From assembly GCF_018390695.1 (NCBI RefSeq), contig NZ_JAHBGF010000010.1:186001-250000 (forward strand): a stretch of DNA of 64,000 bases. Direction: 5' to 3'. A program made the translations under genes and the position numbers. A model generated the notes under the pieces. That model was not told where the DNA came from, searched no databases, and was given only the letters and a program-made list of their open reading frames with translations. The first letter of the stretch is position 1. Each line of letters begins with the position of its first letter. Shown piece by piece: positions 30,562 through 45,813 of this stretch. Source of the stretch: Ancylobacter sonchi. GTDB taxonomy: Bacteria > Pseudomonadota > Alphaproteobacteria > Rhizobiales > Xanthobacteraceae.

Positions 30562-30652
30562 ACGGCCAAAGGTGTACTGCGCATCTGCCACCGGAAGGCC
30601 TGTCGGGGTTGGTTTCCGATGGTCCCGCTTGGGGCGGCGGCTCGACGGAGCG

Positions 30653-31342
30653 CTATTTCTTCGTTCCGTCCGTGTCGCTGACATAGGATAGCGCCAGCGC
30701 TGCGGCACGCTCGACATGCGCCTGCGAGGCCGAATAGGCGGCCTCGCCGTCCTGGGCGCGGATCGCCTCGACGATGCGGCGCATCTCATTCGGGCCGTCC
30801 ACCGAACGGCCCTTGCTGCTCACCGTGATCGCCCGCAAATGGTTGATCCGCGCGGTCAGTGCCCGCAGCATGTCCCAGGCGATGCTCTTTCCGGCAGCAA
30901 GGAACAGCACCTCGTAGAAGCGCGAGGTGGCTTCCAGCACCTTGTTGATGTTGGCTTCGTCATAGCCGACGCGGATCGTCTCGAGGCACGCGTCGAGCTG
31001 GACAATATCGGCCGGTGTGGCCCGGAGCGCCGCATCGCGTGCCGCCATCGCCTCCAGAAGCGCCCGCAATTCATAGATCTGCGCCACCTTCTCCGGCTCG
31101 GCACGGGCGACGATCGGGCCGTGATGGGGAACGATCTCGACCAGCCCCTCCGATTCCAGATGGCGGATGACCTCCCGCACCACGGTGCGGCTGACGCCGA
31201 GAACCTCGACGAGCGTGCGTTCGACGAGGCGTTCCCCCGGCTTGAAATGGAAGCTGAGAATGCCGTCGCGCATTTTCTCCAGCGAGAGCTGGCGCAAGGT
31301 CTTGGTCGTTCGATCGACCTTCAGGTTCAGCGTGTCGGCCAT
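30653..31342 (-). CDS. GntR family transcriptional regulator (FCD type)
   Basis: About 229 residues from MADTLNLKVDRTTK; GGGGG lies a few bases upstream. It has a winged HTH (ILSFHFKPGERLVERTLVEVLGVSRTVVREVIRHLESEGLVEI) and an all-helical FCD effector domain with the metal-binding-type pattern. It is divergent from the DUF1185 gene and likely binds the palindrome at 31399-31424. It is the probable regulator of the whole downstream island (31450-38717), with a small acid as effector. Confidence 0.93.
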   Translation of the reverse strand: MADTLNLKVDRTTKTLRQLSLEKMRDGILSFHFKPGERLVERTLVEVLGVSRTVVREVIRHLESEGLVEIVPHHGPIVARAEPEKVAQIYELRALLEAMAARDAALRATPADIVQLDACLETIRVGYDEANINKVLEATSRFYEVLFLAAGKSIAWDMLRALTARINHLRAITVSSKGRSVDGPNEMRRIVEAIRAQDGEAAYSASQAHVERAAALALSYVSDTDGTKK

Positions 31343-31398
31343 GTTTCCCCCTGCCTCACTCATTCCGCGCTTCGCTGCCGCGAGTCAACGTTGACATC

Positions 31399-31424
31399 TG
31401 ATATTATGGTATACCATGATATCA
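31399..31424. promoter_or_regulatory. GntR operator palindrome
   Basis: A 26-bp palindrome with 12 of 13 matching base pairs, centred on ATGGTATACCAT. The TGGTATACCA core is the type of site bound by FCD-class GntR proteins. It lies between the GntR gene and its divergent operon, next to a TTGACA -35-like hexamer at 31391-31396, so binding would block the rightward promoter. Confidence 0.8.
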
Positions 31425-31449
31425 TCCTATCAACGCCGAGAGGAAGACG

Positions 31450-32037
31450 ATGGTGGCCGCCCTGCGAAAGCTCGTGACTTATGTCGAGGACACGCGGATC
31501 GAGGGAGGCAAGGCTGTCGGCTCGCCGTTCAAGCTGATCGGCGCCGCGGCGGTGCTGAAGAATCCCTGGGCCGGCCGCGGCTTCGTCGAGGATCTGCGCC
31601 CGGAGATCCATGCCATTGCCGGCGAGCTCGGCGCGCTGCTGACCGAGGCCGTCTGCGACCTCGCCGGCGGCGGAGAGGCGGTCGAAGGCTATGGCAAGGC
31701 CGCCATCGTCGGCCTCGCCGGCGAGGTCGAGCACGCCTCCGCGCTCATCCATACGCTTCGCTTCGGCAACCACTACCGCAAGGCGGTGGGCGCAAAGTCC
31801 TATCTCAGCTTCACCAATGTCCGCGCCGGCGCCGGCGCCGCCATCGTGATCCCGCTGATGCACAAGCTCGACGAGGGCATGCGCTCGCATTACCTGACCG
31901 TGAATTTCTCGATCCCCGATGCGCCGGCCGCCGACGAGATCGTCGTCGCCCTCGGCGCCTCGATCGGCGGCCGGCCGCACCATCGGATCGGCGACCGCTA
32001 TCAGGATCTGAAGGAACTCGGGCCGCTGGAGCTCTGA
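31450..32037 (+). CDS. Amino acid synthesis family protein (DUF1185)
   Basis: 195 residues that look like the AA_synth/DUF1185 family: MVAALRKLVTYVEDTRIEGGK, KNPWAGRGFVEDLRP, YGKAAIVGLAGEVEHASALIHTLRFGNHYRKAV and IVIPLMHKLDEGMRSHY. The family name is historical and its catalytic role is unknown to me. It is the first gene of the GntR-controlled operon, directly before two alpha/beta hydrolases, so a role in degrading the imported compound is inferred. Confidence 0.87.
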   Translation: MVAALRKLVTYVEDTRIEGGKAVGSPFKLIGAAAVLKNPWAGRGFVEDLRPEIHAIAGELGALLTEAVCDLAGGGEAVEGYGKAAIVGLAGEVEHASALIHTLRFGNHYRKAVGAKSYLSFTNVRAGAGAAIVIPLMHKLDEGMRSHYLTVNFSIPDAPAADEIVVALGASIGGRPHHRIGDRYQDLKELGPLEL

Positions 32038-32038
32038 C

Positions 32039-32887
32039 GTGAAGCCGCTCCTGCGCCACCACACGCCCGACGGCACCGCCTATCTGCGCCACGGACAGGG
32101 CGAGCCGCTCGTCCTCGTCCATGGCGTCGGGCTCAATGCCGAGATCTGGGCGCCGCAATTCACCGATTTCGCCGCTACCTACGACGTGATCGCCCTCGAC
32201 ATGCTCAATCACGGCGCCTCCGCCGGCACTGCCGGGCCGGCGGACACGCTCGATCTCTACATCCGCCAGATCGAGGCGCTGCTCGATCATCTCGGCATCG
32301 AGCGCGCGCATCTGGTGGGGCACTCTATGGGCGCCCTCGTCTCCATGGCCTTTGCCGCCACGCATCCGGCGCGGGTGCGCAGCCTCGTGGCGCTCAACGC
32401 GGTCTGGTGCCGCAGCCCGGCGCAGTCGGAAGCGGTCATCCGCCGGGCCGACGACATCACGGCGCTTGGGCTCGGCGACAGTTTCGAGGTCGCCATCGGG
32501 CGCTGGTTCGGCTCGCCGGTGCCTGGGGAGCTGGCGGACGCCGAGAAGGCGGTCCGGCGCCACCTCGCCACCATCGATCCCGCCGGATATGGACGCAGCT
32601 ACGCGCTGTTCGCCCGTTCCGACCGCGCGCTCGTCGGCAGGATGGCCGGCATCACCATGCCGGCGCTGTTCATGACCGGAGAGCTCGACCCCAATTCGAC
32701 GCCGGCCATGTCGGAAGCCATGGCGCGCGAGGTGCCGCATGGCGAGGCGCAGATCCTCACGGCCGAACGGCACATGATGGCGTTCGTCTCGCCGCAGCGG
32801 ATCGACGAACGGCTGCGGGATTTCTGGCGGCGTGCGAGCGCGGCCGAATCCCGGCAGGCCGTGAGCGCGGCGGAGGCCCGCCCATGA
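32039..32887 (+). CDS. Alpha/beta hydrolase 1
   Basis: 282 residues starting with GTG; GGAG lies 7 bp upstream. Oxyanion region HGVGLNAEIW, nucleophile elbow VGHSMGA (Ser96), acid in TGELDPNSTP and catalytic His in TAERHMMAFV are all present, so it should be an active esterase, amidase or C-C hydrolase. Its stop overlaps the start of hydrolase 2 by 4 bp. Resembles enol-lactonase/PcaD-like hydrolases in size and layout. Confidence 0.9.
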   Translation: MKPLLRHHTPDGTAYLRHGQGEPLVLVHGVGLNAEIWAPQFTDFAATYDVIALDMLNHGASAGTAGPADTLDLYIRQIEALLDHLGIERAHLVGHSMGALVSMAFAATHPARVRSLVALNAVWCRSPAQSEAVIRRADDITALGLGDSFEVAIGRWFGSPVPGELADAEKAVRRHLATIDPAGYGRSYALFARSDRALVGRMAGITMPALFMTGELDPNSTPAMSEAMAREVPHGEAQILTAERHMMAFVSPQRIDERLRDFWRRASAAESRQAVSAAEARP

Positions 32888-33684
32888 CCGGCGCCTCCCT
32901 CACCGAGCGGATCTCCGTCGGCGGCACGGGGCCTGCCATCGTGCTCATCCACGGCGTCGGGCTGTCCCGCTGGGTGTGGGAACAGCCGGCTGCCGCGCTG
33001 GCACCGCATGCCAGGGTGGTCAGCTACGATCTGCCCGGCCATGGCTGCGACGACCGCGCTTTCGAGACGGGATCGCTCGACGCCTATGTCGAGGATCTTG
33101 CCGCCGTGCTGGACATGGCCGACGTCGAGCGGGCGGTGTTCGTCGGCGCCGCCTTCGGCAGCTTCATCGCCCGGCGTTTCGTCCGCCTGCACCCGGAACG
33201 GGTCGAGGGGCTGGTCCTCGTCTCCCCGCTGGGGCGCCGGACACCGGAACAGTCGACCGCCGTCGGCGTGCGGTTCCGCGAGACGCAGGCCGAAGGCGTC
33301 GCCGCGACGCTGGAGGCCTCGATCGAGCGCTGGCTGTCGCCCGGATTCCGCGCTGAACGGCCGGATGTCGAGGCGCGGCTGCGCGCGGTTCTGCTCGCCA
33401 CGCCGTTTGCCAGCTTTCTTTCCGCCTACCGGGTCTTCGCCACCGTCGACGGGGCGATCGCCGATGAGGCTGCGTCGATCACCGCTCCGGTCCTCGTGAT
33501 CACCGGCGGCGACGATGCCAATGCGACGCCGCAAATGGCGCGTCAGGTCGGCGAGGCGCTGAACGACGCCACGCTGACGGTCCTGCCCGGCATCCGGCAC
33601 CTCGTGTCGCTCGAAGCCGGCGCGCTGCTCGGCGAGGCCATCCTTTGCTTCGCCCGTGAGAGGACCACCCACGCCTATCGATAG
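32884..33684 (+). CDS. Alpha/beta hydrolase 2, nucleophile serine replaced
   Basis: 266 residues from MTGASLTERISVGG, with the ATG inside the stop region of hydrolase 1. The HGVGLSRWVW oxyanion region, the acid (GGDDANATP) and the His (GIRHLVSLEAG) are present. But the nucleophile elbow reads GAAFG (residues 88-92): the Gly-x-Ser-x-Gly serine is Ala90. It is either a pseudo-enzyme partner of hydrolase 1 or a hydrolase-fold enzyme using other chemistry. The two genes are homologous and probably arose by duplication. Confidence 0.87.
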   Translation: MTGASLTERISVGGTGPAIVLIHGVGLSRWVWEQPAAALAPHARVVSYDLPGHGCDDRAFETGSLDAYVEDLAAVLDMADVERAVFVGAAFGSFIARRFVRLHPERVEGLVLVSPLGRRTPEQSTAVGVRFRETQAEGVAATLEASIERWLSPGFRAERPDVEARLRAVLLATPFASFLSAYRVFATVDGAIADEAASITAPVLVITGGDDANATPQMARQVGEALNDATLTVLPGIRHLVSLEAGALLGEAILCFARERTTHAYR

Positions 33685-33720
33685 CCTGGCTCATGCAAAC
33701 TCAAAAAAGGGGAACGTGTC

Positions 33721-34587
33721 ATGCATGAACTGTCGCAGCGCATCTGGAGTCGATTGAAATACGCCGCCCTGGCCCTCGGTGTCGCCGCCGGTCTCGCCGG
33801 CACCGCCGATCGCGCCTCGGCGCAGGCCAGCACATGGGACAAGATTCAGTCCGACAAGGTGATCAAGGTCGGCGTCGCCCAGGCGGAGCCGTGGTTCTTC
33901 AAGGATCCCGCCACCGGCCAGTGGACCGGCATCGGCCCCTCCTATGCCGCCGCGCTCGCCGAGGCGATGGGCGTGAAGCTCGAGCTCGTCGAGGTGACCT
34001 GGGGTACCGCCATCGCGGCGCTGCAGTCGAGCAAGATCGATCTGATGCCGCTCTTGAACATCACCCCCAAGCGGGCGCTCACCGTCGATTACGGCAATGC
34101 GCCGCTCGCCTATTCCGGTCTCGCGCTGCTGCAGCGCGACGGGCTGAACATCAAGACCTGGGACCAGGCCAACGATCCTGCCCTGACCATCGCCGTGCCG
34201 CATGGCGCCTCGGAAGACCAGTTCGTTACCACCTATCTGTCGAAGGCGAAGGTGCTACGCTTCCCCTCCTATGCCGAGCAGCTCACCGCCTTCCAGAACG
34301 GCAATGCCGACGCGGTGCTGCTCTATCACCCGACGCTGGCGGTGATGCATGGCCGGGTCGGCAAGGGCACCATCACCATCCCCACGCCGTTCCATATCGA
34401 CTCGTCCGACGTCGCCATCCGGCGCGAGCCGGACAAGACCTTCCGCGACTTCCTCGCGGTGGCCGACGGCTATTTCTACAACACCGGCAAGACCCAGGAA
34501 TGGTACGAAGCGTTCCTGAAGAGCCGCGGCATGGATCCGAGCGCCGTGCCCGGCATCCAGCGCGAGGCCTGGACCGGCGTGAAATAG
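33721..34587 (+). CDS. Amino-acid-type (family 3) substrate-binding protein
   Basis: 288 residues after an AAGGGG site. A signal peptide ends at about TADRASA/QAST. The SBP_bac_3 domain shows VIKVGVAQAEPWFFKDPATGQWTGIGPSYAAALAEAMG, and FNITPKRALTVDYG-like text in the hinge. It is the binding protein of the importer encoded in the next three genes. It shares layout (AQAEPWFFKDPATG vs VQAPPWYEKDLATG) with the protein at 25979. Confidence 0.92.
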   Translation: MHELSQRIWSRLKYAALALGVAAGLAGTADRASAQASTWDKIQSDKVIKVGVAQAEPWFFKDPATGQWTGIGPSYAAALAEAMGVKLELVEVTWGTAIAALQSSKIDLMPLLNITPKRALTVDYGNAPLAYSGLALLQRDGLNIKTWDQANDPALTIAVPHGASEDQFVTTYLSKAKVLRFPSYAEQLTAFQNGNADAVLLYHPTLAVMHGRVGKGTITIPTPFHIDSSDVAIRREPDKTFRDFLAVADGYFYNTGKTQEWYEAFLKSRGMDPSAVPGIQREAWTGVK

Positions 34588-34703
34588 CGCGCAGGAGAGC
34601 GGGACGGTCGACACGCGCCGTCCCGCCGCCTGGCCGCACCCGTGCCGCCGGGCGGATCGTCCGCTCTTCGACCGCGACGCCGGGAGGCGATCAAGGATAG
34701 GCA

Positions 34704-35384
34704 ATGCACTATCAATGGGACTTCTCCGTCATCGGCGACAATGCCGGGCTGCTGCTCTGGGGCCTCGGCAATACGCTGCTGCTGACGCTGATCGCCATCC
34801 TCATCGGCACGCCGCTCGGTCTCGCCGTCGCGCTGATGCGCCTGTCGTCGCGGCGCTGGCTGGTGTGGCCGGCGACCGTCTATGTGGAGGTGTTCCGCGC
34901 CGCGCCGGCGCTGGTGCAGCTCTACTGGCTGTATTTCGCACTACCCCGCCTCACCGGCCTCCGGCTCGGCGGCTTCGAGGCAGCCGCCATCGCGCTGTCG
35001 ATCCTGTCGAGCGCCTTCCTCTCGGAAGTGTTTCGCGGCGGCATCGCCTCGATCGGCAAAGGACAGTGGGACGCCGCGCGCGGCATCGGGCTCAGCTATC
35101 CCCGCATGCTGCGCACCATCATCCTGCCCCAGGCGATCCGGCGCATGCTGCCGGTGTTCCTGGAGCGCTATATCGAGCTGCTCAAGACCTCGACCATCGC
35201 CGCGACAGTGTCGTTCGGCGACCTGCTGTTCGTCGCGCAGGACATCTCCTACCGCACCTACCGGACGCTGGAGATTTTCTCCGCGATCGCGGTGATGTTC
35301 TTCCTCGTCATCCTGTTGTGCAGCCAGCTCACCCGGCTGGTTGAGCACCGGCTCGCCCGCAGCGGCGAATTCACCGCACGCTGA
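34704..35384 (+). CDS. Polar amino acid ABC transporter permease A
   Basis: 226 residues with about five membrane segments. The EAA-type loop reads WDAARGIGLSYPRMLRTIILPQAIRRMLPVFLERYIELLKTSTIA. It pairs with permease B, which starts 12 bp after its stop, so the channel is a heterodimer of the HisQ/HisM kind. Confidence 0.92.
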   Translation: MHYQWDFSVIGDNAGLLLWGLGNTLLLTLIAILIGTPLGLAVALMRLSSRRWLVWPATVYVEVFRAAPALVQLYWLYFALPRLTGLRLGGFEAAAIALSILSSAFLSEVFRGGIASIGKGQWDAARGIGLSYPRMLRTIILPQAIRRMLPVFLERYIELLKTSTIAATVSFGDLLFVAQDISYRTYRTLEIFSAIAVMFFLVILLCSQLTRLVEHRLARSGEFTAR

Positions 35385-35396
35385 GGAGGCGACGCG

Positions 35397-36062
35397 ATGG
35401 ATGCCTTCCTCTCGCCCAGCCTCGCGATCAGCCTGCCGGCGCTCGCGCGCGGGCTCGTGCACACGCTGGAGCTTGCCGTCGTCTGTCTGGTGGCGAGCCT
35501 GTTGCTCGGGCTGGTCTTTGGCGTGATGCGCTATGCCGGCGGCCGCGTGCTGCACGCCCTCGCCATCGCCTATGTCGAGGTGTTCCGCAACACGCCGGTG
35601 CTGGTGCAGATCCTGTGGTTCTTCTTCGCGCTGCCGATCCTCGTGCAGTTCGAGATCAGCGCCTTCACCGCCGCCGCGCTCGGCCTGTCGCTGAACTCCG
35701 GCGCCTTCTCGGCGGAGATTTTCCGCGCCGGCATGCAGGCGGTGCCGAAAGGCCAGTGGGAGGCGGCCAACGCGCTCGGCATGAGCCGGACCCGCGTCAT
35801 GTTCCGCATCGTGCTGCCGCAAGCGGTCCGCCACATGATCCCGGCCTTCACCAATCGCTGGATCGAGCTGTTCAAGCTGACCTCGCTCGCCTCGGTCATC
35901 GCCTATCCCGAGCTGGTCTATTCGGCGCAGCAGATCTCCAACAGCTACTTCAACCCGGTCGAGGTGTTCACCCTGGTGGCGGTGATCTTCATCGCCCTGG
36001 TGATCCCGGCCTCCTATCTCCTCCGCCGCCTCGAAGCCCGTCTACGCAGGAGCGCTCCGTGA
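35397..36062 (+). CDS. Polar amino acid ABC transporter permease B
   Basis: 221 residues preceded by GAGGAGG. Visible membrane segments include LELAVVCLVASLLLGLVFGV. The EAA loop is WEAANALGMSRTRVMFRIVLPQAVRHMIPAFTNRWIELFKLTSLA. Its stop overlaps the GTG of the ATPase gene by 4 bp. Confidence 0.92.
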   Translation: MDAFLSPSLAISLPALARGLVHTLELAVVCLVASLLLGLVFGVMRYAGGRVLHALAIAYVEVFRNTPVLVQILWFFFALPILVQFEISAFTAAALGLSLNSGAFSAEIFRAGMQAVPKGQWEAANALGMSRTRVMFRIVLPQAVRHMIPAFTNRWIELFKLTSLASVIAYPELVYSAQQISNSYFNPVEVFTLVAVIFIALVIPASYLLRRLEARLRRSAP

Positions 36063-36850
36063 CCACCGACAATGTCATCGAAATCTCGGGCTTGCGGAAA
36101 AGCTTCGGCGCGCATGAGGTGCTGAAGGGCATCGACCTCGTGATACCGAAGGGCAAGACGGTGGTGCTGCTCGGCGCCAGCGGCTCGGGCAAGAGCACGC
36201 TGCTGCGCTGCGTGAACTTCCTGGAGACGCCGACCGCCGGCACCGTCGCCTTCAACGGCAAGCCGGTTGGCACGCCCAAGGGGACCGGCGGCGAGCGCAG
36301 CTATTCCGACCGCGAGCTGAGGGCGCTGCGCGCCCACATCGGCATCGTCTTCCAGCAGTTCAACCTGTTCCCGCACATGACGGCGCTGGAGAACATCATG
36401 GAAGGCCAGCGCGCCGTGCTCGGGCGCAGCCGCGAGGAGGCGGCGGCGCGAGCCGAGGCATTACTCGCCCGGGTCGGCCTCGCAGGACGCGGCGGTGCCT
36501 ATCCCTCGCACCTGTCCGGCGGCCAGCAGCAGCGCGTCGCCATCTGCCGGGCGCTCGCCATGGACCCGGACGTTATGCTGTTCGACGAGGCGACCTCCGC
36601 GCTCGACCCGGAGCTCGTCGGCGAGGTGCTGCGCACCATGAAGGCGCTGCGCGAGGACGGCATGACCATGCTCATCGTCACCCATGAACTCGGCTTCGCC
36701 TACCACATCGCCGACGAGGTGGTGTTCCTCAGCGAGGGGCGCATCTACGAGCAGGCGCCGCCGCACGAGGTCATGCTGCACCCAAAGGGCGAGCGCACCC
36801 GCCAGTTCATGCTCGGCCACAGCGAATTCCGCCTCCCGCATCTCGACTGA
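36059..36850 (+). CDS. Polar amino acid ABC transporter ATP-binding protein
   Basis: 263 residues from a GTG at 36059 overlapping the permease stop. Motifs: Walker A GASGSGKST, Q-loop VFQQFNLFPHM, signature LSGGQQQRVAICRAL, Walker B VMLFDEATSALDPE (Ala instead of the usual Pro after Glu), H-loop IVTHELGFAYHIAD. GlnQ/HisP class. It completes the importer that serves the GntR-controlled island. Confidence 0.93.
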   Translation: MTTDNVIEISGLRKSFGAHEVLKGIDLVIPKGKTVVLLGASGSGKSTLLRCVNFLETPTAGTVAFNGKPVGTPKGTGGERSYSDRELRALRAHIGIVFQQFNLFPHMTALENIMEGQRAVLGRSREEAAARAEALLARVGLAGRGGAYPSHLSGGQQQRVAICRALAMDPDVMLFDEATSALDPELVGEVLRTMKALREDGMTMLIVTHELGFAYHIADEVVFLSEGRIYEQAPPHEVMLHPKGERTRQFMLGHSEFRLPHLD

Positions 36851-36885
36851 CGCCGCGGCCTACCCCTCACAGTTGGAACACGCAG

Positions 36886-37596
36886 ATGAAGATTACCTGG
36901 TTCGGCCATTCCGCCTTCCGCGTCGAGATCCCCGGCGCCGTGCTGCTGATCGATCCGTTCCTGAAGTATCATCCGGCCTATGCCGGCAATTTCGACGAGA
37001 TGATCGCCGGCACCACCCATGTCCTGCTCACTCACGGCCATGAGGACCATGTCGGCGACACTGTCGAGATCTGCGCCGCGACCGGCGCCGAGCTGGTCAG
37101 CTCGCCGGAAGTGTGCGGCTGGCTGGCGCTTCAGGGCGTGGCGAGGATCAATCCCGGCAATATCGGCGGCACCATCGATTGCGGGGCGTTCAAGGTGTCG
37201 TTCACCGATGCGACGCATTCCTCCTCGATGATCGTCGCCGGCAAGATGATCTATCTCGGCCCGGCAATGGGGCTGGTGATCCGCGCCGAGAACGAGCCGA
37301 CGCTCTATCATATGGGCGATACCGGCCTGTTCGGCGACATGGCGCTGATCGACGAACTGTACCGCCCGGAGATCGGCATCGTGCCGATCGGCGACCGCTT
37401 CACCATGGATGCCAGGCAGGCCGCCATCGCCTGCAAGCGGTTCTTCCATTTCGATACGGTGATCCCCGCGCATTACGCGACCTTCCCGCTGCTCGCCGCC
37501 TCTGCCGACGAGCTGGTGCGCGACCTTGCCGGCACCGACAGCAAGGTGCAGGTGCTCGCCTATGGCGCGGGCGCCGAATTCACAGGGGCGCGGTGA
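36886..37596 (+). CDS. UPF0173-type metal-dependent hydrolase (metallo-beta-lactamase fold)
   Basis: 236 residues. The metal site is clear: THGHEDHVGD (HxHxDH), then ATHSSSM, HMGDTGLFGDM and HYATFPLL, the pattern of the UPF0173/UlaG-like group. Such enzymes hydrolyse phospho- or carboxylic lactones and similar esters. Its last base is shared with the start of the next gene (TGATG), so the two proteins are translated together. The substrate is unknown; a ring-opening role would suit the adjoining monooxygenase. Confidence 0.9.
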   Translation: MKITWFGHSAFRVEIPGAVLLIDPFLKYHPAYAGNFDEMIAGTTHVLLTHGHEDHVGDTVEICAATGAELVSSPEVCGWLALQGVARINPGNIGGTIDCGAFKVSFTDATHSSSMIVAGKMIYLGPAMGLVIRAENEPTLYHMGDTGLFGDMALIDELYRPEIGIVPIGDRFTMDARQAAIACKRFFHFDTVIPAHYATFPLLAASADELVRDLAGTDSKVQVLAYGAGAEFTGAR

Positions 37597-38717
37597 TGGG
37601 CGAGCGCATAGCGGAGATCGCCGGCGGCGGCATTGCCGGCCTCGCCTGCGGCTGGGCGCTTGCCCTGCGCGGCTGGAAGGTGCGGGTGCATGAGCGCAGC
37701 CCGGAGATCCGCGAGGTCGGTGCCGGCATCTACCTGATGCGCAACACCGTCTCGCTGTTCGAGCATCACGGCATCGCCGGCACGATCCTGCGCAACAGCG
37801 TGACCCTGACCGGCACCGAGCGGCGCGACGCGCAGGGCCGGCTGATCCAGCACCGCAGCTTCGATCCCGCCGAGCCATGGTACGTGCTCCCGCGCGCCGA
37901 TCTCGTGCTCGGCCTCGCCGAGGCCGCACGAAGCGCCGGCGTCGAGATCGTCACCGATTCGATGATCACCGACATGCAGCCCGACGGTACGGTTGTCACG
38001 GCGGCCGGCGAGCGTCGCCGCGTCGACCTCGCCGTCGCGGCCAACGGCTTCCGCTCGCGCCTGCGCGACGGTCTCGGCCTCACCGGCTTTGTCGAGGAAC
38101 GGGCCGCCGGCGCCACGCGGCTGCTCATTCCGCGCGGCGCGGCGGAGGAGGACCTGGTGATGCGCGAATACTGGTCCGGCAGACGCCGGATCGGCATCAC
38201 GCCGTCCTCGCCGACCCTGACCTATGCCTATCTCAGCTGCCCGAACGACGATGCGCGCGGCGTCGCGCTGCCGCTCGACAAGGCGTCGTGGAAGCAGGCC
38301 TTCCCGGCGCTGGGCGGCTTCTTCGACCGCATCCCCGACGACACCGCGCTGGTGCGCCATGCCTATCCGCTGGCGAAGGCCAAGGCCTGGTCGAACGGTC
38401 GCGCCGCGATCGTCGGCGACGCGGCGACGGCGCTGCCGCCGACGCTGGCGCAGGGGGCGGGCCTCGCCATCACCAACGCCTATTCGCTGGCGAAGACGCT
38501 GGACCAGCACCGCGACGTTGCGGTCGGCCTAAAGGCCTGGGAGGCCGAGTATCGCTGGATTTCCGATCAGACGCAGAACTGGTCGGCGCGGCTCGACAGC
38601 ATGACCACCCACTGGCCACCGGCGCTGGCGCCGCTGCGGCGCGGCGTGATCTGGGCCATCGGTGCGGTACTCAACGATCGCGTACGGGTCGCTGACCGGG
38701 TGCGGCTCGCGCCCTGA
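37596..38717 (+). CDS. FAD-dependent monooxygenase
   Basis: 373 residues. The dinucleotide fold starts IAGGGIAGLACGWALALRGWKVRVHERS, and the second FAD motif is AIVGDAATALPPTLAQGAG. It belongs to the p-hydroxybenzoate/salicylate/nicotinate hydroxylase class. It is the last gene of the island and starts in the stop codon of the UPF0173 gene. Together with uptake, hydrolases and DUF1185 it suggests degradation of an aromatic or N-heterocyclic acid (inference). Confidence 0.9.
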   Translation: MGERIAEIAGGGIAGLACGWALALRGWKVRVHERSPEIREVGAGIYLMRNTVSLFEHHGIAGTILRNSVTLTGTERRDAQGRLIQHRSFDPAEPWYVLPRADLVLGLAEAARSAGVEIVTDSMITDMQPDGTVVTAAGERRRVDLAVAANGFRSRLRDGLGLTGFVEERAAGATRLLIPRGAAEEDLVMREYWSGRRRIGITPSSPTLTYAYLSCPNDDARGVALPLDKASWKQAFPALGGFFDRIPDDTALVRHAYPLAKAKAWSNGRAAIVGDAATALPPTLAQGAGLAITNAYSLAKTLDQHRDVAVGLKAWEAEYRWISDQTQNWSARLDSMTTHWPPALAPLRRGVIWAIGAVLNDRVRVADRVRLAP

Positions 38718-39075
38718 CGACACGGGCATCCGATCGCCAAGCGCATATGCCGGCAGAGGCCATCCCGCATGGCTTTGCGAGATCCGTCTTGCGAAGCCAT
38801 CCTTGCGCGCGGTCCCCCGACGCGGGAGGCGTTTCATTCCGGGCCGATTGATGCGCCCGGCATGGCGGTCGGTTTCCTTGCCGCGTTGGCTTCGACGATC
38901 TGCTCGTGTCCTTCGAATGGAGAGGGGCTGAACGAGTTTCGAGCATTGGTTCATAAAATCAGTCTCGGTCACCTATGGACACGGCCATGATCCTTGCTTG
39001 ATTGGGATAGTAGCGACGTGCATTTCCATGGAGTTTACCCCTTCCATGCGGACGGAAGAAGCTAAGATACTTTCA

Positions 39076-39236
39076 TCCGTTGCGTTGATCGACATCGTAA
39101 TTTCTTGATTTATAAGAAAATAACACTCCATTTGGTTCGATTAAGTGAGTAAATCTATCCTTCCGTTGCGTTGTTGTATTGTTGCTGATGTCAATAATAT
39201 TGACTCTTGCAAATGGCCAATAATACAATTCCGTTG
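39076..39236. repeat. Three TCCGTTG direct repeats
   Basis: TCCGTTGCGTTG occurs exactly at 39076-39087 and 39162-39173, and the shorter TCCGTTG recurs at 39230-39236. Copies 1 and 3 are each soon followed by TGATCGA. Spacing is 86 and 68 bp, near whole helical turns for the first pair. Confidence 0.6.
39190..39204. promoter_or_regulatory. 15-bp palindrome upstream of glycosyltransferase
   Basis: GTCAATA-A-TATTGAC is a perfect odd-length palindrome 226 bp before the GTG start at 39430. It is a possible regulator site; no regulator gene is adjacent. Confidence 0.5.
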
Positions 39237-39429
39237 TGATCGAAGCCTGCGGAAGCGGGTTGAGGAGCAGGCGCTGCATGGATGCCGTGGAGGTCAGCCG
39301 GGACACTGCGAGGGGAGGGCCGGTCTACGTGCCGACAGGCTGCGACGGGTTCTCGCCGCTCCGGTGGGGCTCGATGTGTGCCGACACTTCCTGGCGTGAA
39401 CGAACCATGGTCTGGAGGGCGACGTTCCC

Positions 39430-40812
39430 GTGACGCTTCCACGCCTGCCGCTGGTCAGCTTTGTCGTCGTCAACCACAATTACGGTCGCTTCCTGCCGGA
39501 GTTGGTGAACGCGATCCGGGCGCAGAGCTATCCGGAGATCGAGTGCATCCTTGTCGATGACGCCTCGACCGACGACAGCATTCAGGTGATCACGCGCCTC
39601 ATTGCGGAGGATCCCGCGTTACGGCTGGTGGCGCTCCGGCACAATGTCGGCCAGAGCTTGGCGAGCATGGCTGGTTGGGAGGCGGCGCGCGGCGCCTATG
39701 TCGCCTTTCTCGACGCGGATGACCTGATCTTGCCGGACTACGCAGCAACGCATGTCTATGTCCACATGTCGTCGCGCCGCCACGTGGCATTGACCTCGTG
39801 CGACATGTTCCAGGCGCTGGACGGTCGTGCGGTGGTGGCGACCGGTGAGGCACTCAATGGCTATTTCGCCGCGCACGGGTCGGCGGGAGCGGAGTGGTTC
39901 CGTCCGGTCGACGTGACCGGAGGCCTGTGGCCCCTTGGCCTGCCGGGTGACGACGTGCTGCGGCACGTCGCCTATGTTCCGCCGTCCCACAGCCGCTGGT
40001 GCTGGTCGCCGACGTCCGGTAACGTCTACCGGCGCGATGCGCTGGAGGTGCTCGTCGGCATGGCCGGGCTGGACCATTTGCGCATGACCACCGACGTGCT
40101 GTTCTGTGCCGGAACCAATTGCATTTCGGGCAGCCTGCTTATCGATCGGCCGCTTGCGGTCTATCGACTGCACGGCGACAATCTCGCCACCGTACGGTCG
40201 CAGCTCGACAATGTGCGGGTGATGCGCGCCGGCAGTGAATGTTCGCAGCAAGCCTTGCGGCTGCTGATCGCCCATTTCCTGTCCGAGGCCGAGCGCATCG
40301 TGCCGCGGTTCTGGCATGCCGCCAGCTATGTCGAAGCCGTCGAGAGCCTCGGTCGCACGTTGGGGGAGGGCGGCGATCCGAATTTTCTGCCTGCGGCGAT
40401 CCTTCAATATGGCGAGGCGCTCACAGCCGCGATGGGGCAAGATACCCTCAGCGCCTGGATGCGGCGGCACGAGTTGATCGTGGAAGCGAAGCCCGAGCCC
40501 GTGCTGTCGGCCCTGTCCGAGCCGTCCGGTACGCCCACCGATTCAGTGCCTTACGTGTCGACCGAGCTTGCGTCCCTCCCGGAGCTGCCGGCGCAGCCGG
40601 AAGCCTCGGAGCCGATGGCGCTGACGGTGGCGTCGGCACATCCAGATGTGTCCGACCCCGCGATTCCATCCGCATTGTCGACGGAGCAGAAGTCGTCGGT
40701 CGCAAGGCACGAAAACCACGGAGTCTTGCACCGGTTCGCCGAGCAAATACGGCGGCTCGTCGGATCGAGATCATCTTATGCCGCCAAGACAATCGAGGAT
40801 GTCGTCCGTTAA
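39430..40812 (+). CDS. Family 2 glycosyltransferase with C-terminal extension
   Basis: 460 residues from a GTG; GGAGGG lies about 10 bp upstream. The N-terminal GT-A fold has VSFVVVNHNYGRFLPELVNAIRAQSYPEIECILVDDASTDDS and the metal-binding AFLDADDLILPDY. The domain ends at about residue 280. The following ~180 residues have a helical part and then a Pro/Ser/Glu-rich stretch (AKPEPVLSALSEPSG...) ending in a basic segment HRFAEQIRRLVGSRSSYAAK. The acceptor and sugar are unknown. The radical SAM gene follows after 16 bp, implying one transcript. Confidence 0.88.
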   Translation: MTLPRLPLVSFVVVNHNYGRFLPELVNAIRAQSYPEIECILVDDASTDDSIQVITRLIAEDPALRLVALRHNVGQSLASMAGWEAARGAYVAFLDADDLILPDYAATHVYVHMSSRRHVALTSCDMFQALDGRAVVATGEALNGYFAAHGSAGAEWFRPVDVTGGLWPLGLPGDDVLRHVAYVPPSHSRWCWSPTSGNVYRRDALEVLVGMAGLDHLRMTTDVLFCAGTNCISGSLLIDRPLAVYRLHGDNLATVRSQLDNVRVMRAGSECSQQALRLLIAHFLSEAERIVPRFWHAASYVEAVESLGRTLGEGGDPNFLPAAILQYGEALTAAMGQDTLSAWMRRHELIVEAKPEPVLSALSEPSGTPTDSVPYVSTELASLPELPAQPEASEPMALTVASAHPDVSDPAIPSALSTEQKSSVARHENHGVLHRFAEQIRRLVGSRSSYAAKTIEDVVR

Positions 40813-40828
40813 CGGCTGGAGGGGGACC

Positions 40829-42037
40829 ATGGGAATTCTCGATGCGATCCGGCGCCTGCTTCCACTGGAAGACGTGGCGCTTGTTCCCGACGCGCCGCCC
40901 GGCGTTCCCCGCTTCCTCTTCCTGCAGGTGAACAAGCGCTGCAACCTGCGTTGCCTGCATTGCTCCTTCTGGCACGAGAAGGACACCGATCGCGCCAATT
41001 ATCTGGACGCCGCCGGCAAGCAACGGCTGATGGGCGAGTTTCATGCGTTGAACCCGCGTGGCGCCGTGGTGATCTGCGGCGGGGAGAGCATGCTCGATCT
41101 CGAAGACTATTTCGGCATCTCGAAGGAATGTCGGAGTCTCGGGCTCACCTGCGTGTCCGTCATCAATGGCACCCGTGTGCGCAACGCGGAGATGGCAGAC
41201 CGGCTGCTACGAGAAGGGCCGCATGAGATATCGGTTTCCCTCAACAGTCACCGTCCGTCGTTGCACGATGAGACGCGCGGGGTGAGAGGCTCCTTCGACA
41301 AGGCGGTACAGGCGCTCCGTCTCCTGCTGGACGCGCGTGCTCGACAGGCCGCCGCCGGAATGGACGCGCCAAAGACCCGCATCTACGTGATGGGCCTGAT
41401 ATTCAACGACAACTACAGAGAGCTGGAAGATTTCTACGATTTCGTACTGAACGACGTCGGCGCCGACAAGCTCAAGCTGAATTTTCTGCAGCCGAGCTTC
41501 GGGGATACGGAAGTGGATCATTTTTTCGCCGAGCGTCATCGGATGGAGCCGAACGAACTCGTCTCCGCCATCCGCCGCTGCGATGCACGCTTTGGTCTCG
41601 GCCTGACCGAGGCCTGGATCGGCAATGTGCGCATGTATGTGGAATCGCTTCAGGGGGCGAACGATCTCGTGCGAGGCTGGGGCGCCGATACGCGTACCCG
41701 GGATCACATCTGCAATACGTACGAACGCAATATCATGGTGGATCACTACGGCGTCGCCCGGCTGTGCTTCTCCACCGAGTTCCGGGGCGTCAAACTCGAG
41801 CAGAGCGGCGATCTCGCGCGCTTCTGGAGAGAAACGGATGACGTGCGCGAGCAGATGCGCCAATGCAATCGCTTCTGCGGCATCAGTCACAGCGTGCGTC
41901 GCGTCAGCGCGACCACCACACCCGCGGCCTACAGCCTGCCGGAGCGTTCGCCGACCCCGACAGGAGTGTCCGCAGGGCGCCGAATTCTCTTGAGCTTGTC
42001 GCAAGGGAGGTGGACCTCCCGGCTGGCAGGCAACTAG
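40829..42037 (+). CDS. Radical SAM protein with C-terminal cysteine cluster
   Basis: 402 residues from the ATG at 40829, preceded by GGAGGGGG. The radical SAM cluster motif CNLRCLHC is at residues 38-45, followed by a GGES motif (CGGESMLDL) for SAM binding. The C-terminal region has HICNTYERN, ARLCFSTEF and QCNRFCGIS, Cys spacing like an auxiliary-cluster SPASM/Twitch domain. It resembles the heme/PQQ/sactipeptide-type peptide- or sugar-modifying radical SAM enzymes, but no peptide precursor gene is seen nearby. Its pairing with a glycosyltransferase suggests it alters a sugar or a glycoconjugate, or works on a surface polymer. Confidence 0.88.
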   Translation: MGILDAIRRLLPLEDVALVPDAPPGVPRFLFLQVNKRCNLRCLHCSFWHEKDTDRANYLDAAGKQRLMGEFHALNPRGAVVICGGESMLDLEDYFGISKECRSLGLTCVSVINGTRVRNAEMADRLLREGPHEISVSLNSHRPSLHDETRGVRGSFDKAVQALRLLLDARARQAAAGMDAPKTRIYVMGLIFNDNYRELEDFYDFVLNDVGADKLKLNFLQPSFGDTEVDHFFAERHRMEPNELVSAIRRCDARFGLGLTEAWIGNVRMYVESLQGANDLVRGWGADTRTRDHICNTYERNIMVDHYGVARLCFSTEFRGVKLEQSGDLARFWRETDDVREQMRQCNRFCGISHSVRRVSATTTPAAYSLPERSPTPTGVSAGRRILLSLSQGRWTSRLAGN

Positions 42038-42183
42038 ACGCCATCGCGGTTCACCAAGAGCGATCCTGGATCGAGGTCGTCCGCCGCGCTCAAGCGGCAG
42101 GTCGTCATCGTCTGTCGCTGCTCGCGGCGAGGGAAACCATGCGAAAACGCCAGCCCGAACGTTCCGGTTCCCCGGAGACGAGA

Positions 42184-42852
42184 TCAGGCCTGACCGGTCG
42201 GCGGCTTCGTGCCGTAGGCAGCGAGGAACACCCGCACGGCCATATCCACCATCGTCTCGATCTGCGCCGGAGCCGGCTGGGTGAGTTCGCCGAACAAGAG
42301 CGCCTTGACCTGCTTGCCTTGGCACATGTTGAGGAACATGTGCGCTGCCGCCACTTCATCGTCGAGTTCCAGCCGGCCGAGAGTGGCCTGCTGGCGCAGA
42401 ATGTCGGCAAGTCGACGCCCGCCATGGCAGGGGCCCGCCTCGAAGAAGATCTGGCCGATATGCGGCAGCTTCTCGGCGGCGCCGATCACCATGCGGATCA
42501 GCCGAATATGGTCGGGGTGCACCATCATGGTCATGAAGGAGATGCCGATGCGGCGCAGCAGCCCGGCAACGTCGTCAACCGAGGGATCGACCACGAACAG
42601 GTGTTCGGCCGAGCGGGCCCGGTCGTTGAGGACCAGGGCTTCGAACAGGTCTTCCTTCCCGCCGAAATAGACGTAGATCGTCGCCTTGGAGACGCCGGCC
42701 GCCTTGGCGACCTCGTCCATGGTCGCCCCATCATAGCCCTTCTCGAAAAAGACCCGCCGGGCGCCGTCGATGATCTCGCGGCGCTTCGACGATTCCTGAT
42801 CCGTGCGCGGGTTGGCGCGCCCGTTGGGCTTCTCCGTGACGATCTCGTTCAT
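42184..42852 (-). CDS. TetR family regulator of EmrAB-type efflux
   Basis: 222 residues. The HTH reads REIIDGARRVFFEKGYDGATMDEVAKAAGVSKATIYVYFGGKEDLFEAL. The C-terminal domain is of the TetR_C type seen in efflux regulators (MCQGKQVKALLFGE). It is divergent from the EmrA-like gene, with two identical 15-bp palindromes in the gap, so it probably represses both directions and is released by a toxic compound. Confidence 0.93.
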   Translation of the reverse strand: MNEIVTEKPNGRANPRTDQESSKRREIIDGARRVFFEKGYDGATMDEVAKAAGVSKATIYVYFGGKEDLFEALVLNDRARSAEHLFVVDPSVDDVAGLLRRIGISFMTMMVHPDHIRLIRMVIGAAEKLPHIGQIFFEAGPCHGGRRLADILRQQATLGRLELDDEVAAAHMFLNMCQGKQVKALLFGELTQPAPAQIETMVDMAVRVFLAAYGTKPPTGQA

Positions 42853-42910
42853 GCTTGCCTCCGGCCTTGCTGACAGAGGACGCCACAGGCTTCCGTGTCA
42901 AGCCTATTGA

Positions 42911-42925
42911 CTAAACGGTTTAGTT
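42911..42925. promoter_or_regulatory. TetR operator, copy 1
   Basis: ACTAAAC-G-GTTTAGT is a perfect 15-bp palindrome. It overlaps a TTGACT -35-like hexamer at 42909-42914. Bound repressor would occlude the promoter of the efflux genes and probably its own. Confidence 0.9.
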
Positions 42926-42948
42926 TGATATGTAAAGCATCGATTGAA

Positions 42949-42963
42949 CTAAACGGTTTAGTC
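42949..42963. promoter_or_regulatory. TetR operator, copy 2
   Basis: An identical 15-bp palindrome, 38 bp (centre to centre) from copy 1, 32 bp upstream of the EmrA start. Exact identity of the pair makes it strong evidence for a functional double operator. Confidence 0.9.
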
Positions 42964-42995
42964 GTGACCGGCGTGGCCGCGACCCGGAGGCGAAG

Positions 42996-44177
42996 ATGGC
43001 TCAAATCGAACGTAAGTCGGCGCAGGTTGCCGAGGTGGAGCGCCCAAGCGGTGCCGAGCCGGTGCCTCTCACCTCGCGCAAGCCGGGGGTGGATGCTCCT
43101 GTCGCGGGCGGCGTGGCCGATGCCGCGCCCGCGCGGCCGAAGCGTTCGCGCAAGCGACTCTTGCTCGGGGCGGTGCTGGTGGCCGTGGTCGCCGGCGGTG
43201 GCTATTACGGGCTCGACTGGTGGCGGGTCGGCCGCTTCCTGGTCTCGACCGACGACGCCTATGTCGGCGCCGACACCTCGGTGCTCGCCGCCAAGGTGAG
43301 CGGCCACATCACACATGTCGAAGTGGACACCAACCAGCCGGTCAAGGCCGGCGACGTCATCGCCCGCATCGACGATGGCGACTACCGCCTGGCCGTCCAG
43401 GCGGCGGAGAACAAGATCGCCACCCAGCAGGCTACCATCAACCGCTACGGTCAGCAGATCGACGCGGCAAAGGCGAGTGTCGACCAGGCCAAGGCCCAGC
43501 TCGTCGCCGATCAGGCCGAACTCAACCGCACTCAACTCGAATTCGACCGCCAGTCTGAACTGGTGAAGTCGCAATACTCCAGCCGGGCGACGCTCGACAA
43601 TGCCCGCGCCGACCGTGACAAGGCTCAGGCGGCCGTCGATGCCGCCACGGCGGCGGTCACCTCGGCGCAGGCCAATATCGCCGTGCTCGACGCCCAGCGC
43701 ACCGAGGCGATGCGGACGCTCGACGAATACCGCACCGCGCGCGACCAGGCGCGGCGCGATCTCGACTTCACGGTGGTCCGCGCGCCTTTCGACGGCATCG
43801 TCGGCAACCGCGCGGTGCAGGTGGGCCAGCTGGTGCAGGCCGGTACGCGGCTCGCCGCGCTGGTGCCGATCAGCGAGGTCTATGTCGACGCCAACTTCAA
43901 GGAGACGCAGCTTGGCCGCCTGCATCCCGGCCAGCAGGTCGACATCGCCGTCGATGCCTATCCGGACGAGGCGTTCCATGGCCGGGTGGTGAGCGTCGCG
44001 CCGGCCTCGGGCTCTGTGTTCAGCCTGCTGCCGCCGGAGAACGCCACCGGCAATTTCACCAAGATCGTCCAGCGCGTGCCGGTGCGCGTCGAGCTCGACG
44101 CCGCCGCCCGTGCCAAGGCGGAGCTGCGTCCGGGCATGTCGGTGATCGCCACCGTCCACACCCGCACCGACGGCTGA
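42996..44177 (+). CDS. emrA: EmrA/HlyD family efflux periplasmic adaptor
   Basis: 393 residues: cytoplasmic N-terminus, one membrane anchor (KRLLLGAVLVAVVAGGGYYGLDWW, about residues 48-71), barrel-sandwich/lipoyl part (DDAYVGADTSVLAAKVSGHITHVEVDTNQPVKAGDVI), a long coiled coil (about 130-250), and VVRAPFDGIVGNRAVQVGQLVQAGTRLAALVP. It links the MFS pump to an outer-membrane channel. The gene symbol is by family; the drug is unknown. Under TetR control. Confidence 0.9.
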   Translation: MAQIERKSAQVAEVERPSGAEPVPLTSRKPGVDAPVAGGVADAAPARPKRSRKRLLLGAVLVAVVAGGGYYGLDWWRVGRFLVSTDDAYVGADTSVLAAKVSGHITHVEVDTNQPVKAGDVIARIDDGDYRLAVQAAENKIATQQATINRYGQQIDAAKASVDQAKAQLVADQAELNRTQLEFDRQSELVKSQYSSRATLDNARADRDKAQAAVDAATAAVTSAQANIAVLDAQRTEAMRTLDEYRTARDQARRDLDFTVVRAPFDGIVGNRAVQVGQLVQAGTRLAALVPISEVYVDANFKETQLGRLHPGQQVDIAVDAYPDEAFHGRVVSVAPASGSVFSLLPPENATGNFTKIVQRVPVRVELDAAARAKAELRPGMSVIATVHTRTDG

Positions 44178-44208
44178 GCCGGCGCGACATCTCTTTCAGG
44201 AGGCCGCG

Positions 44209-45783
44209 ATGGCGGACACTCTGAGCCTCGGTGCTGCACGCGAGCGACCCGCCTCCTCGGAAGGAAGGCGGATGTTCGCCTTCCTGTGCATGGTGTTCGG
44301 CATGTTCATGGCGATCCTGGACATCCAGATCGTCTCCGCATCGCTGTCCGAGATCCAGGCCGGCCTCGCCGCCAGCGCCGACGAGATCTCCTGGGTGCAG
44401 ACCAGCTACCTCATCGCTGAAGTGGTGATGATCCCGCTGTCGGGCTTCCTGTCACGCGCGCTGTCGACGCGCTGGCTGTTCGTCGCCTCGGCCGCCGGCT
44501 TCACCGTGATGAGCTTCCTGTGCGCGACGGCGACCAGCATCGAGCAGATGATCGTCTACCGGGCGCTTCAGGGCTTTCTCGGCGGCGGCATGATCCCGAC
44601 CGTCTTCGCCGCCGCCTATTCGATCTTCCCGCGCGAGAAGCAGCCCATTGTCACGCCGATGATCGGCCTCGTCGCCACCCTCGCGCCGACCATCGGCCCG
44701 ACGATCGGCGGCTATCTCACCGACCTGTTCTCCTGGCACTGGCTGTTCCTCATCAACATCGTGCCCGGCCTGTTCGTGGTCTTCGCCACCGCCATTCTGG
44801 TCGACTTCGACGAGCCCGACTTCGCCCTGCTGGACCGTTTCGACTGGTGGGGGCTCATCTTCATGGCCGGCTTTCTCGGCAGCCTTGAATTCGTGCTGGA
44901 GGAGGGGCCGACCAATGACTGGTTCGAGGACGAGGCGATCTTCATCTTCGCCATCGTCGGCGCGGTCTCGTCGGTGGCCTTCTTCGCCCGCGTGTTGATG
45001 GCGAAGGAGCCGGTGGTGGACCTCAAGGCGTTCTCCAACCGCAATTTCTCGGTCGGCTCGGCCTTCAGCTTCGTTCTCGGCATCGGCCTTTATGGCCTGA
45101 CCTATCTCTACCCGCTCTATCTGGCGCGGGTACGCGGCTATTCGGCTTTGATGATCGGCGAGACGATGTTCGTCTCCGGCCTCGCCATGTTCCTCACCGC
45201 CCCGCTGGCCGGTCGCCTGGTGGCCAAGATCGATCCTCGGCTGATGATCGGCTTCGGCTTCACCGCCTTCGCCGTGGGAACCTGGCAGGTGACCGGCCTC
45301 ACCAAGGATTGGGATTTCTGGGAGCTGCTGGTGCCGCAGATCCTGCGCGGCGTCGGGCTGATGATGGCGATGATCCCCATCAACAACATCTCGCTCGGTA
45401 CCCTGCCGCCGGCACAGCTGAAGAACGCCTCGGGCCTCTTCAACCTGATGCGCAATCTCGGCGGCGCCGTGGGGCTCGCGCTCATCAACACGGTGCTGAA
45501 CGACCGCTGGGACCTGCACCTCGCCCGCCTGCACGAGAATGTGCAATGGGCCAGCACGGCGGCGGTCGAGCGGCTGGATTCCATGACCAAGGCGCTCGGC
45601 GCGCTGGGCTCGGATGCCGATGTCGCGGCGCTGAAGAAGCTCACCGGGCAGGTTCGTATCCAGGCGGAGGTGATGGCGTTCTCCGACGTGTTCCTGGTTC
45701 TGACGGTGCTGTTCTGCCTGCTGGTCGTCGCGGCTCCGCTGATGCGTCGCCCGGTGCACAAGGGCGGCGGTGGCGGCCACTAG
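44209..45783 (+). CDS. emrB: EmrB/QacA family (DHA2) multidrug MFS transporter
   Basis: 524 residues with about 14 membrane segments, the DHA2 class. The N-terminal motif FGMFMAILDIQIVSASLSEIQAGL and ISWVQTSYLIAEVVMIPLSGFLSRAL are typical of EmrB. It uses the proton gradient to push hydrophobic compounds through the EmrA-type adaptor made by the gene 31 bp upstream. No outer-membrane TolC gene is adjacent. Confidence 0.92.
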   Translation: MADTLSLGAARERPASSEGRRMFAFLCMVFGMFMAILDIQIVSASLSEIQAGLAASADEISWVQTSYLIAEVVMIPLSGFLSRALSTRWLFVASAAGFTVMSFLCATATSIEQMIVYRALQGFLGGGMIPTVFAAAYSIFPREKQPIVTPMIGLVATLAPTIGPTIGGYLTDLFSWHWLFLINIVPGLFVVFATAILVDFDEPDFALLDRFDWWGLIFMAGFLGSLEFVLEEGPTNDWFEDEAIFIFAIVGAVSSVAFFARVLMAKEPVVDLKAFSNRNFSVGSAFSFVLGIGLYGLTYLYPLYLARVRGYSALMIGETMFVSGLAMFLTAPLAGRLVAKIDPRLMIGFGFTAFAVGTWQVTGLTKDWDFWELLVPQILRGVGLMMAMIPINNISLGTLPPAQLKNASGLFNLMRNLGGAVGLALINTVLNDRWDLHLARLHENVQWASTAAVERLDSMTKALGALGSDADVAALKKLTGQVRIQAEVMAFSDVFLVLTVLFCLLVVAAPLMRRPVHKGGGGGH

Positions 45784-45813
45784 CGCCACCCGTCCGCGTG
45801 GGTGACCCCGGGC

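Follow-up and report, generated by a model that had tools for sequence, protein, structure and literature searches.

Which reaction might a glycosyltransferase (GT) and a radical S-adenosylmethionine (rSAM) enzyme carry out together when their genes lie side by side? The question is raised by a gene pair of Ancylobacter sonchi located in a 64,000-nucleotide stretch of contig NZ_JAHBGF010000010.1 (positions 186,001 to 250,000; hereafter the window). The initial annotation, made from the letters alone, saw in this pair a self-contained, tightly controlled, and perhaps acquired unit, an interpretation that as a whole is partly supported by the analysis presented here. The sequence shows the two genes to form one tight unit and relatives of the rSAM enzyme to be repeatedly joined to GTs of different families. 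With modest confidence, we read the pair as a mobile two-enzyme cassette for the tailoring of glycans, acting by the mechanism proposed below.

The GT2 and rSAM proteins

The genes follow each other on the same strand with a gap of 16 bp (Table 1), the tight arrangement that had been noted from the start. The product of the first passes the PF00535 cut-off and thus belongs to the GT2 family; TarS, TarP, and chondroitin polymerase are among its Foldseek matches. Its Pro/Ser-rich and basic tail, also recognized earlier, is disordered in the model and is followed by a modeled helix (residues 430 to 447) that is basic by sequence. An identity as an arsenosugar GT (TIGR04283) was rejected, with a score of 23.7 against an equivalog cut-off of 182.

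The second product carries the core motif CNLRCLHC and three C-terminal groups of cysteines (C295, C313, and C346/C350), all as the initial annotation had described them. With its CX3CX2C motif and a PF04055 score above the cut-off, it would be a member of the radical SAM superfamily by sequence criteria. The accessible text of PMC6231123 gives CX9-15GX4C as the first half of the SPASM motif. The protein has this half and enough cysteines for one predicted auxiliary cluster and is thus putatively of the twitch type; the complete seven-cysteine SPASM motif (CX9-15GX4C-gap-CX2CX5CX3C-gap-C) is absent from it, with just four cysteines after residue 290. The possibility of a SPASM or twitch fold had been raised before, and in the AlphaFold model (predicted local distance difference test [pLDDT] score of 89.5) the folded C-terminal region aligns with auxiliary-cluster enzymes. 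The search for homologs returned 666 database proteins at an E value of ≤0.001. Among the matches listed (120 proteins, 57 to 100% identical), 118 have both the core and the auxiliary motif, the exceptions being P0095 and P0107, and 116 have CGISHSVR, which was also present in all 38 full-length phage proteins of the cluster.

Association with GTs in bacterial genomes

Of 14 bacterial loci of the rSAM family, 11 had a GT partner at a distance of at most 2.5 kb, compared with none of 75 control rSAM loci (0/75). The GT-class profiles used for this were built partly from the same loci and from phages; the controls were the rSAM genes among the matches listed in one pattern scan, largely from other phyla and not matched for taxonomy. 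Two Erythrobacter loci and one from a Blastochloris bin were the three that lacked a GT. A Nitrosomonadales locus (L006) was left out of the 14 because it is fused and its contig ends inside the rSAM part, which was recognized over 68 residues at 51% identity.

The recurring immediate neighbors of the bacterial rSAM homologs were GTs, in various arrangements. Two GT2 genes precede the rSAM gene in one locus (L088). Five genomes from a single genus have the rSAM gene between two GT25 genes (GT25-rSAM-GT25), two genomes from another have GT25-rSAM, and L093 has rSAM-GT25; Pfam confirmed the GT25 assignment for a single gene in each of L089 and L093. The rSAM stop of the Variovorax locus (L002) is followed after about 1 bp, with a tentative start placement, by a reading frame for a GT2 (24.6 bits with PF00535; cut-off, 23.3), and a gene on the opposite strand resembles the phage GT (profile E value of 1.5e-7; no Pfam match). 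Seven GT2 matches, including our own, had an rSAM match with an equal longest-contig size. Other neighbor families shared across genera were general ones (ABC ATPase, hydrolase, sensor kinase, and decarboxylase-like) and lay at least 1.6 kb from the module; this list came from a rough picker of open reading frames (ORFs) of at least 80 aa, few of them annotated, and it missed upstream GT genes that were later found by tblastn. In a Blastochloris bin (L005, 9980 to 11100), an rSAM homolog is split over two frames, maybe as a pseudogene or by an assembly error.

The two kinds of domain also occur in one polypeptide. PF04055 and PF00535 were found together in 5 of the 120 homologs among the matches listed. 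With the rSAM part of P0031 as the query and protein length restricted to about 380 to 1220 aa, 69 proteins were listed, 20 of which had a precomputed GT domain (19 of these also PF04055); this domain was PF00535 in 17 proteins (eight also with PF02709) and of the GT10 fucosyltransferase type in 3. An unclassified N-terminal domain looks GT-like by eye in four fusions, and Pfam gave nothing in the two that were scanned. P0243 is a fusion of tetratricopeptide repeats (TPR) and rSAM without a GT match. The reading frame at 369 to 5429 of L006 encodes at least 1687 aa, with a sulfotransferase, TPR, a GT2, and the start of an rSAM domain at the contig end.

If two unrelated acquired genes had come together in an operon by chance, this would fit the position of the module at a mosaic junction and the rarity of the family (see below). 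This explanation already fails against the family-wide pairing; given the repeated association and the fusions, we find it scarcely credible.

Association with GTs in viral contigs

The alignment of the family, scanned against IMG/VR, yielded 44 loci with members of the family (43 to 60% identity) and 16 remote loci. From these 60, the 16 distant loci (L144 to L159) were dropped, and five others (L138 to L142) begin inside the rSAM gene; in all of the 39 left, a GT-type gene lay directly upstream of the rSAM gene. In the 37 loci where the spacing was measured, the genes overlap by 1 to 4 nt (29 loci) or are 8 to 11 nt apart (8 loci), and they overlap as well in the remaining two. The GT partners fell into one cluster of 31 loci, a GT7 cluster of 6, and 2 GT2 proteins like those of the bacterial fusions, classes that were tested on some members (PHROGs, 3/31; Pfam, 3/31; GT7, 1/6) or, for the GT2 of L136 and L137, called by eye, these two having served to build one profile of the bacterial comparison. 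The three tested members of the large cluster matched phrog_1574, annotated as of unknown function, and, more weakly, a glycosyltransferase PHROG; PF00535 stayed under its cut-off in the three members tested. Proteins read by eye as T4-like gp32 and UvsX follow in many of the loci.

Plasmid and annotated-phage collections gave no match at E values of 1e-30 and 1e-10. The link to phages thus rests on the IMG/VR contigs, whose viral origin is judged by gene content. A fold search of BFVD returned only remote phage rSAM proteins (≤19% identity) among the 50 matches listed. Some of the IMG/VR contigs with the pair are very large (L128, 335 kb; L124, 200 kb; L117, 104 kb).

Adjoining or fused, the rSAM family is thus found with GT2, GT25, GT7, GT10, and phage-type GTs. 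In a 48-sequence rSAM tree, which has an arbitrary root and weak nodes and in which L002 is labeled by its opposite-strand gene, the window protein groups with one from Rhodoplanes (support of 0.87), near the TPR fusion and a group of GT2 fusions that includes a Methylocystis protein; the phage proteins stand on separate branches, and the class of partner mostly follows the clades, with several changes. A coupling of GT and rSAM is well supported. The recurrence of the pair or its fusion in bacteria and phages strongly supports the view of a self-contained unit, and no known polysaccharide cluster or cluster for ribosomally synthesized and posttranslationally modified peptides (RiPPs), either of which would have spoken against it, was met among the loci examined.

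The spacing also bears on a RiPP-type pathway, in which the rSAM enzyme would crosslink or epimerize a small peptide and the GT would then glycosylate it. Mycofactocin offers a precedent, with the rSAM/SPASM enzyme MftC, which acts on a peptide, and the GT2 MftF in one cluster. Identity with this system was rejected (MftC, 44.8 against a cut-off of 265; MftF, 43 against 280). The rSAM protein falls far under every NCBIfam cut-off shown, including that of its best match, a sactipeptide maturase, and SPASM/twitch rSAM enzymes do include RiPP maturases (accessible text of PMC6231123). However, between GT and rSAM there is no space for a peptide gene, neither in the 37 phage loci, all with an overlap or at most 11 nt, nor in the 16 bp of our own. 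Moreover, no common small gene was found among the bacterial neighbor ORFs of at least 80 aa (rough ORF calls, with smaller ORFs not searched there). A RiPP-type pathway is improbable.

Relation to sugar-modifying rSAM enzymes and proposed mechanism

The two best solved folds for the rSAM model are those of BlsE and DesII, both of which modify sugars. DesII, of the TDP (thymidine diphosphate)-desosamine pathway, is 17% identical to our protein and serves a single-substrate antibiotic pathway; to our knowledge, the sugar-acting rSAM enzymes known so far all serve single antibiotic pathways. BtrN, the twitch rSAM dehydrogenase of an aminocyclitol in butirosin biosynthesis, had a lower fold score than BlsE, and we know of no GT partner for it. 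BlsE, the cytosylglucuronate decarboxylase of blasticidin S (PDB 7vob), is the best solved match by both sequence and fold, with a likeness that covers the rSAM core and the C-terminal domain. Nevertheless, identity is about 18 to 20%, and the TIGR04466 score (26.9 bits) is far from the equivalog cut-off of 400. According to the accessible text of PMC3715490, the substrate of BlsE is a glucuronyl sugar linked to cytosine, and its second cluster is proposed to be bound by CxCxxC, whereas our rSAM protein has CX12GX4C...CX3C.

The protein scores 29.2 bits over residues 32 to 151 with pVip, the PADLOC profile of prokaryotic viperins, which has no stated cut-off. A viperin-like rSAM enzyme would make an antiviral or signaling nucleotide, with the GT as unrelated cargo. 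We hold this to be highly improbable: BlsE scored well above viperin (24.7), the association with GTs is far beyond that of the control, the fusions join both domains in one chain, and phages carry the pair. A role in defense was accordingly ranked low.

In the mechanism that we propose, the transferase would determine the donor as well as the acceptor, on a glycan or glycoprotein of the cell surface or the virion, and the 5'-deoxyadenosyl radical of the rSAM enzyme would abstract a hydrogen from a carbon of the sugar, be it the nucleotide-sugar donor or the sugar just transferred. Since BlsE and DesII, the best-matching folds, both act on sugars, we favor radical modification of the donor or of the transferred sugar. 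The predicted four-cysteine auxiliary cluster might then accept an electron, as in BtrN, for a net oxidation of a sugar hydroxyl, and another reaction (epimerization, deoxygenation, or BlsE-like decarboxylation) is about as likely. In the host, the acceptor would probably be a surface glycan encoded at another place in the genome. That the rSAM enzyme stays constant while the GT changes suggests a division in which the GT determines the site and the rSAM enzyme the modification. We infer that the substrate is a sugar; the reaction type is speculative.

Several gene contexts, because they involve virions and adhesins, make a protein acceptor the main rival of this reading: the rSAM enzyme would modify a secreted or virion protein at its side chains, or make the attachment site, and the GT would glycosylate the same protein. 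The Variovorax rSAM gene lies directly 3' of genes for TpsB and an 1845-aa adhesin with a two-partner secretion (TPS) domain. In 14 viral loci, a gene of a single cluster precedes the GT gene, by 20 to 39 nt in 9 loci and by 598 nt in the other 5; of the 4 members tested, 3 match a virion structural PHROG and L122 is the exception. The end of the rSAM gene in L136 and L137 is overlapped by 1 to 4 nt by the next gene, whose product looks by eye like a beta-helix virion protein (Pfam match under the cut-off for L136, none for L137). TPR repeats occur in L006 and P0243, and SuiB and SkfB are close folds to the rSAM model. Nonetheless, no recurring surface-protein gene was found at our own and the alphaproteobacterial loci inspected (rough ORF calls), and the GT family varies while the rSAM enzyme stays constant. 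Tailoring of proteins is therefore rather unlikely, though a good deal less so than the other alternatives.

The glycan-tailoring reading can be extended, more tentatively, to a general radical glycan-editing cassette in which a constant rSAM enzyme and interchangeable GTs would move between bacteria and phages and make the same so-far-unseen change on cell or virion sugars, perhaps altering phage adsorption or recognition. The rSAM family travels with five kinds of GT and occurs on viral contigs; if glycans are indeed what it edits, surface sugars would be a widespread target of radical chemistry, and the fusions would be simple one-polypeptide systems for finding the reaction. The accessible text of PMC7029224 places several GTs and rSAM cassettes of pelagimyophages in the same hypervariable region for host recognition, and reports no rSAM genes in the freshwater pelagimyophages studied; a fixed GT-rSAM pair is not among what it describes. 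Nor was a GT-rSAM pair or fusion described in the accessible text of the literature searched, which covered few subscription journals.

Boundaries, rarity, and acquisition of the module

The module lies in a 3,484-bp segment that starts after the stop of a flavin adenine dinucleotide (FAD) monooxygenase gene and reaches 18 bp into a TetR gene at its 3' end (Table 1). On its left, blastn aligned 30658 to 38717 with contig C11 of the related genome G902 (95%) and 30652 to 38720 with contig C11 of G062 (87%); on its right, 42202 to 45784 aligned with another contig of G902, C27 (94%). At an E value of 1e-40, the right-hand TetR gene has a homolog in all 30 genomes of the genus and the left-hand monooxygenase in 3 of 30, including our own.

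The rSAM family was found in 1 of the 30 genus genomes, the host itself. Wider searches, in which the best few candidates per genome were scored, found it in 9 of 391 genomes of the family (6/149 in an earlier draw), 2 of 397 of the order, and 1 of 398 of the phylum, each count including our own genome. It was present in 1 of 15 genomes within the family of an order member (G422). No tRNA gene that could serve as an integration site was found in the window, and the longest word common to both boundaries was 8 bp, which is not notable; no search was aimed at transposases. The mosaic structure of the genome around the window is supported by these comparisons and would match what an acquisition looks like; the earlier suggestion that the unit was acquired is borne out to this extent by its restriction to one genome of the genus and by its position at a synteny junction.

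The flanks show mosaic features of their own. The 8.06-kb block on the left (transporter genes, a hydrolase, and the FAD monooxygenase) has the same end point in three genomes, past which their fetched stretches do not align with one another, as might be seen if the block were mobile as a whole. The TetR/HlyD/MFS block on the right sits elsewhere in G902.

Table 1. Coordinates of the features of the module and its surroundings (positions in the window)
Feature	Position	Strand	Remarks
Segment of 3,484 bp	38718-42201		blastn: no match in the fetched regions of two related genomes (G902, G062)
AT-rich leader	38990-39245	+	39.5% GC vs 66.3% for the window
Repeat TCCGTTGCGTTG, copy 1	39076-39087	+	12-mer repeat, starts with TCCGTTG at 39076
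Repeat TCCGTTGCGTTG, copy 2	39162-39173	+	12-mer repeat, TCCGTTG at 39162
Inverted repeat	39174-39228		Arms 39174-39184 and 39218-39228, 91% complementary
Palindrome of 15 bp, GTCAATA-A-TATTGAC	39190-39204		Overlaps -35-like hexamer
Promoter-like site, TTGACT-18-TACAAT	39200-39229	+	Consensus match only; 1 site found vs 0.8 expected by chance over the scanned region
Third TCCGTTG	39230-39236	+	Sequence
GT2 glycosyltransferase gene	39430-40812	+	GTG start, 460 aa; PF00535, 85.8 bits vs cut-off of 23.3, E value of 4.1e-24
GT2 disordered Pro/Ser-rich tail, residues 367-428	40528-40713	+	AlphaFold2 pLDDT of <50
rSAM enzyme gene, putative twitch-type C terminus	40829-42037	+	402 aa; PF04055, 62.8 bits vs cut-off of 29.5
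CX3CX2C motif of the rSAM [4Fe-4S] cluster (C38, C42, C45)	40940-40963	+	Invariant in the 86-member alignment
C295-X12-G308-X4-C313, first half of auxiliary-cluster motif	41711-41767	+	Invariant in the 86-member alignment and in 13 sequences including phage ones
C346-X3-C350, start of family signature CGISHSVRR	41864-41878	+	Cys invariant (86-member alignment; 13 sequences)

The leader of the GT2 gene

The leader features of the initial annotation, namely, three TCCGTTG copies, a 15-bp palindrome, a second inverted repeat, and a high AT content, are all present. When 200-bp stretches are taken in 20-base steps, those with the lowest GC content in the window fall inside the leader, and its three TCCGTTG copies are the only ones in the 64 kb on both strands. 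The overlap of the promoter-like site and the palindrome gives an operator-like layout. In 1000 dinucleotide shuffles of 490 bp, a 7-mer occurred at least three times in 83, a 7+1+7 palindrome occurred in 30, and a 12-mer occurred twice in 7, so that the 12-mer repeat alone clearly stands out. The repeats are thus mostly weak statistically, and they are not common to the leaders of relatives: none of the 9 other module leaders that were inspected contains TCCGTTG or drops below 50% GC over any 200 bp. Control by conserved repeats was accordingly dropped as a feature of the family, and the description of the unit as tightly controlled is not supported by the leader features. A scan of the window with Rfam at gathering scores gave no match. 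A second AT-rich low (about 22621 to 22940) lies within an 854-aa ORF at 22320 to 24884, the translation of which reads by eye like a secreted protein with RTX-type calcium repeats and a metalloprotease-like part.

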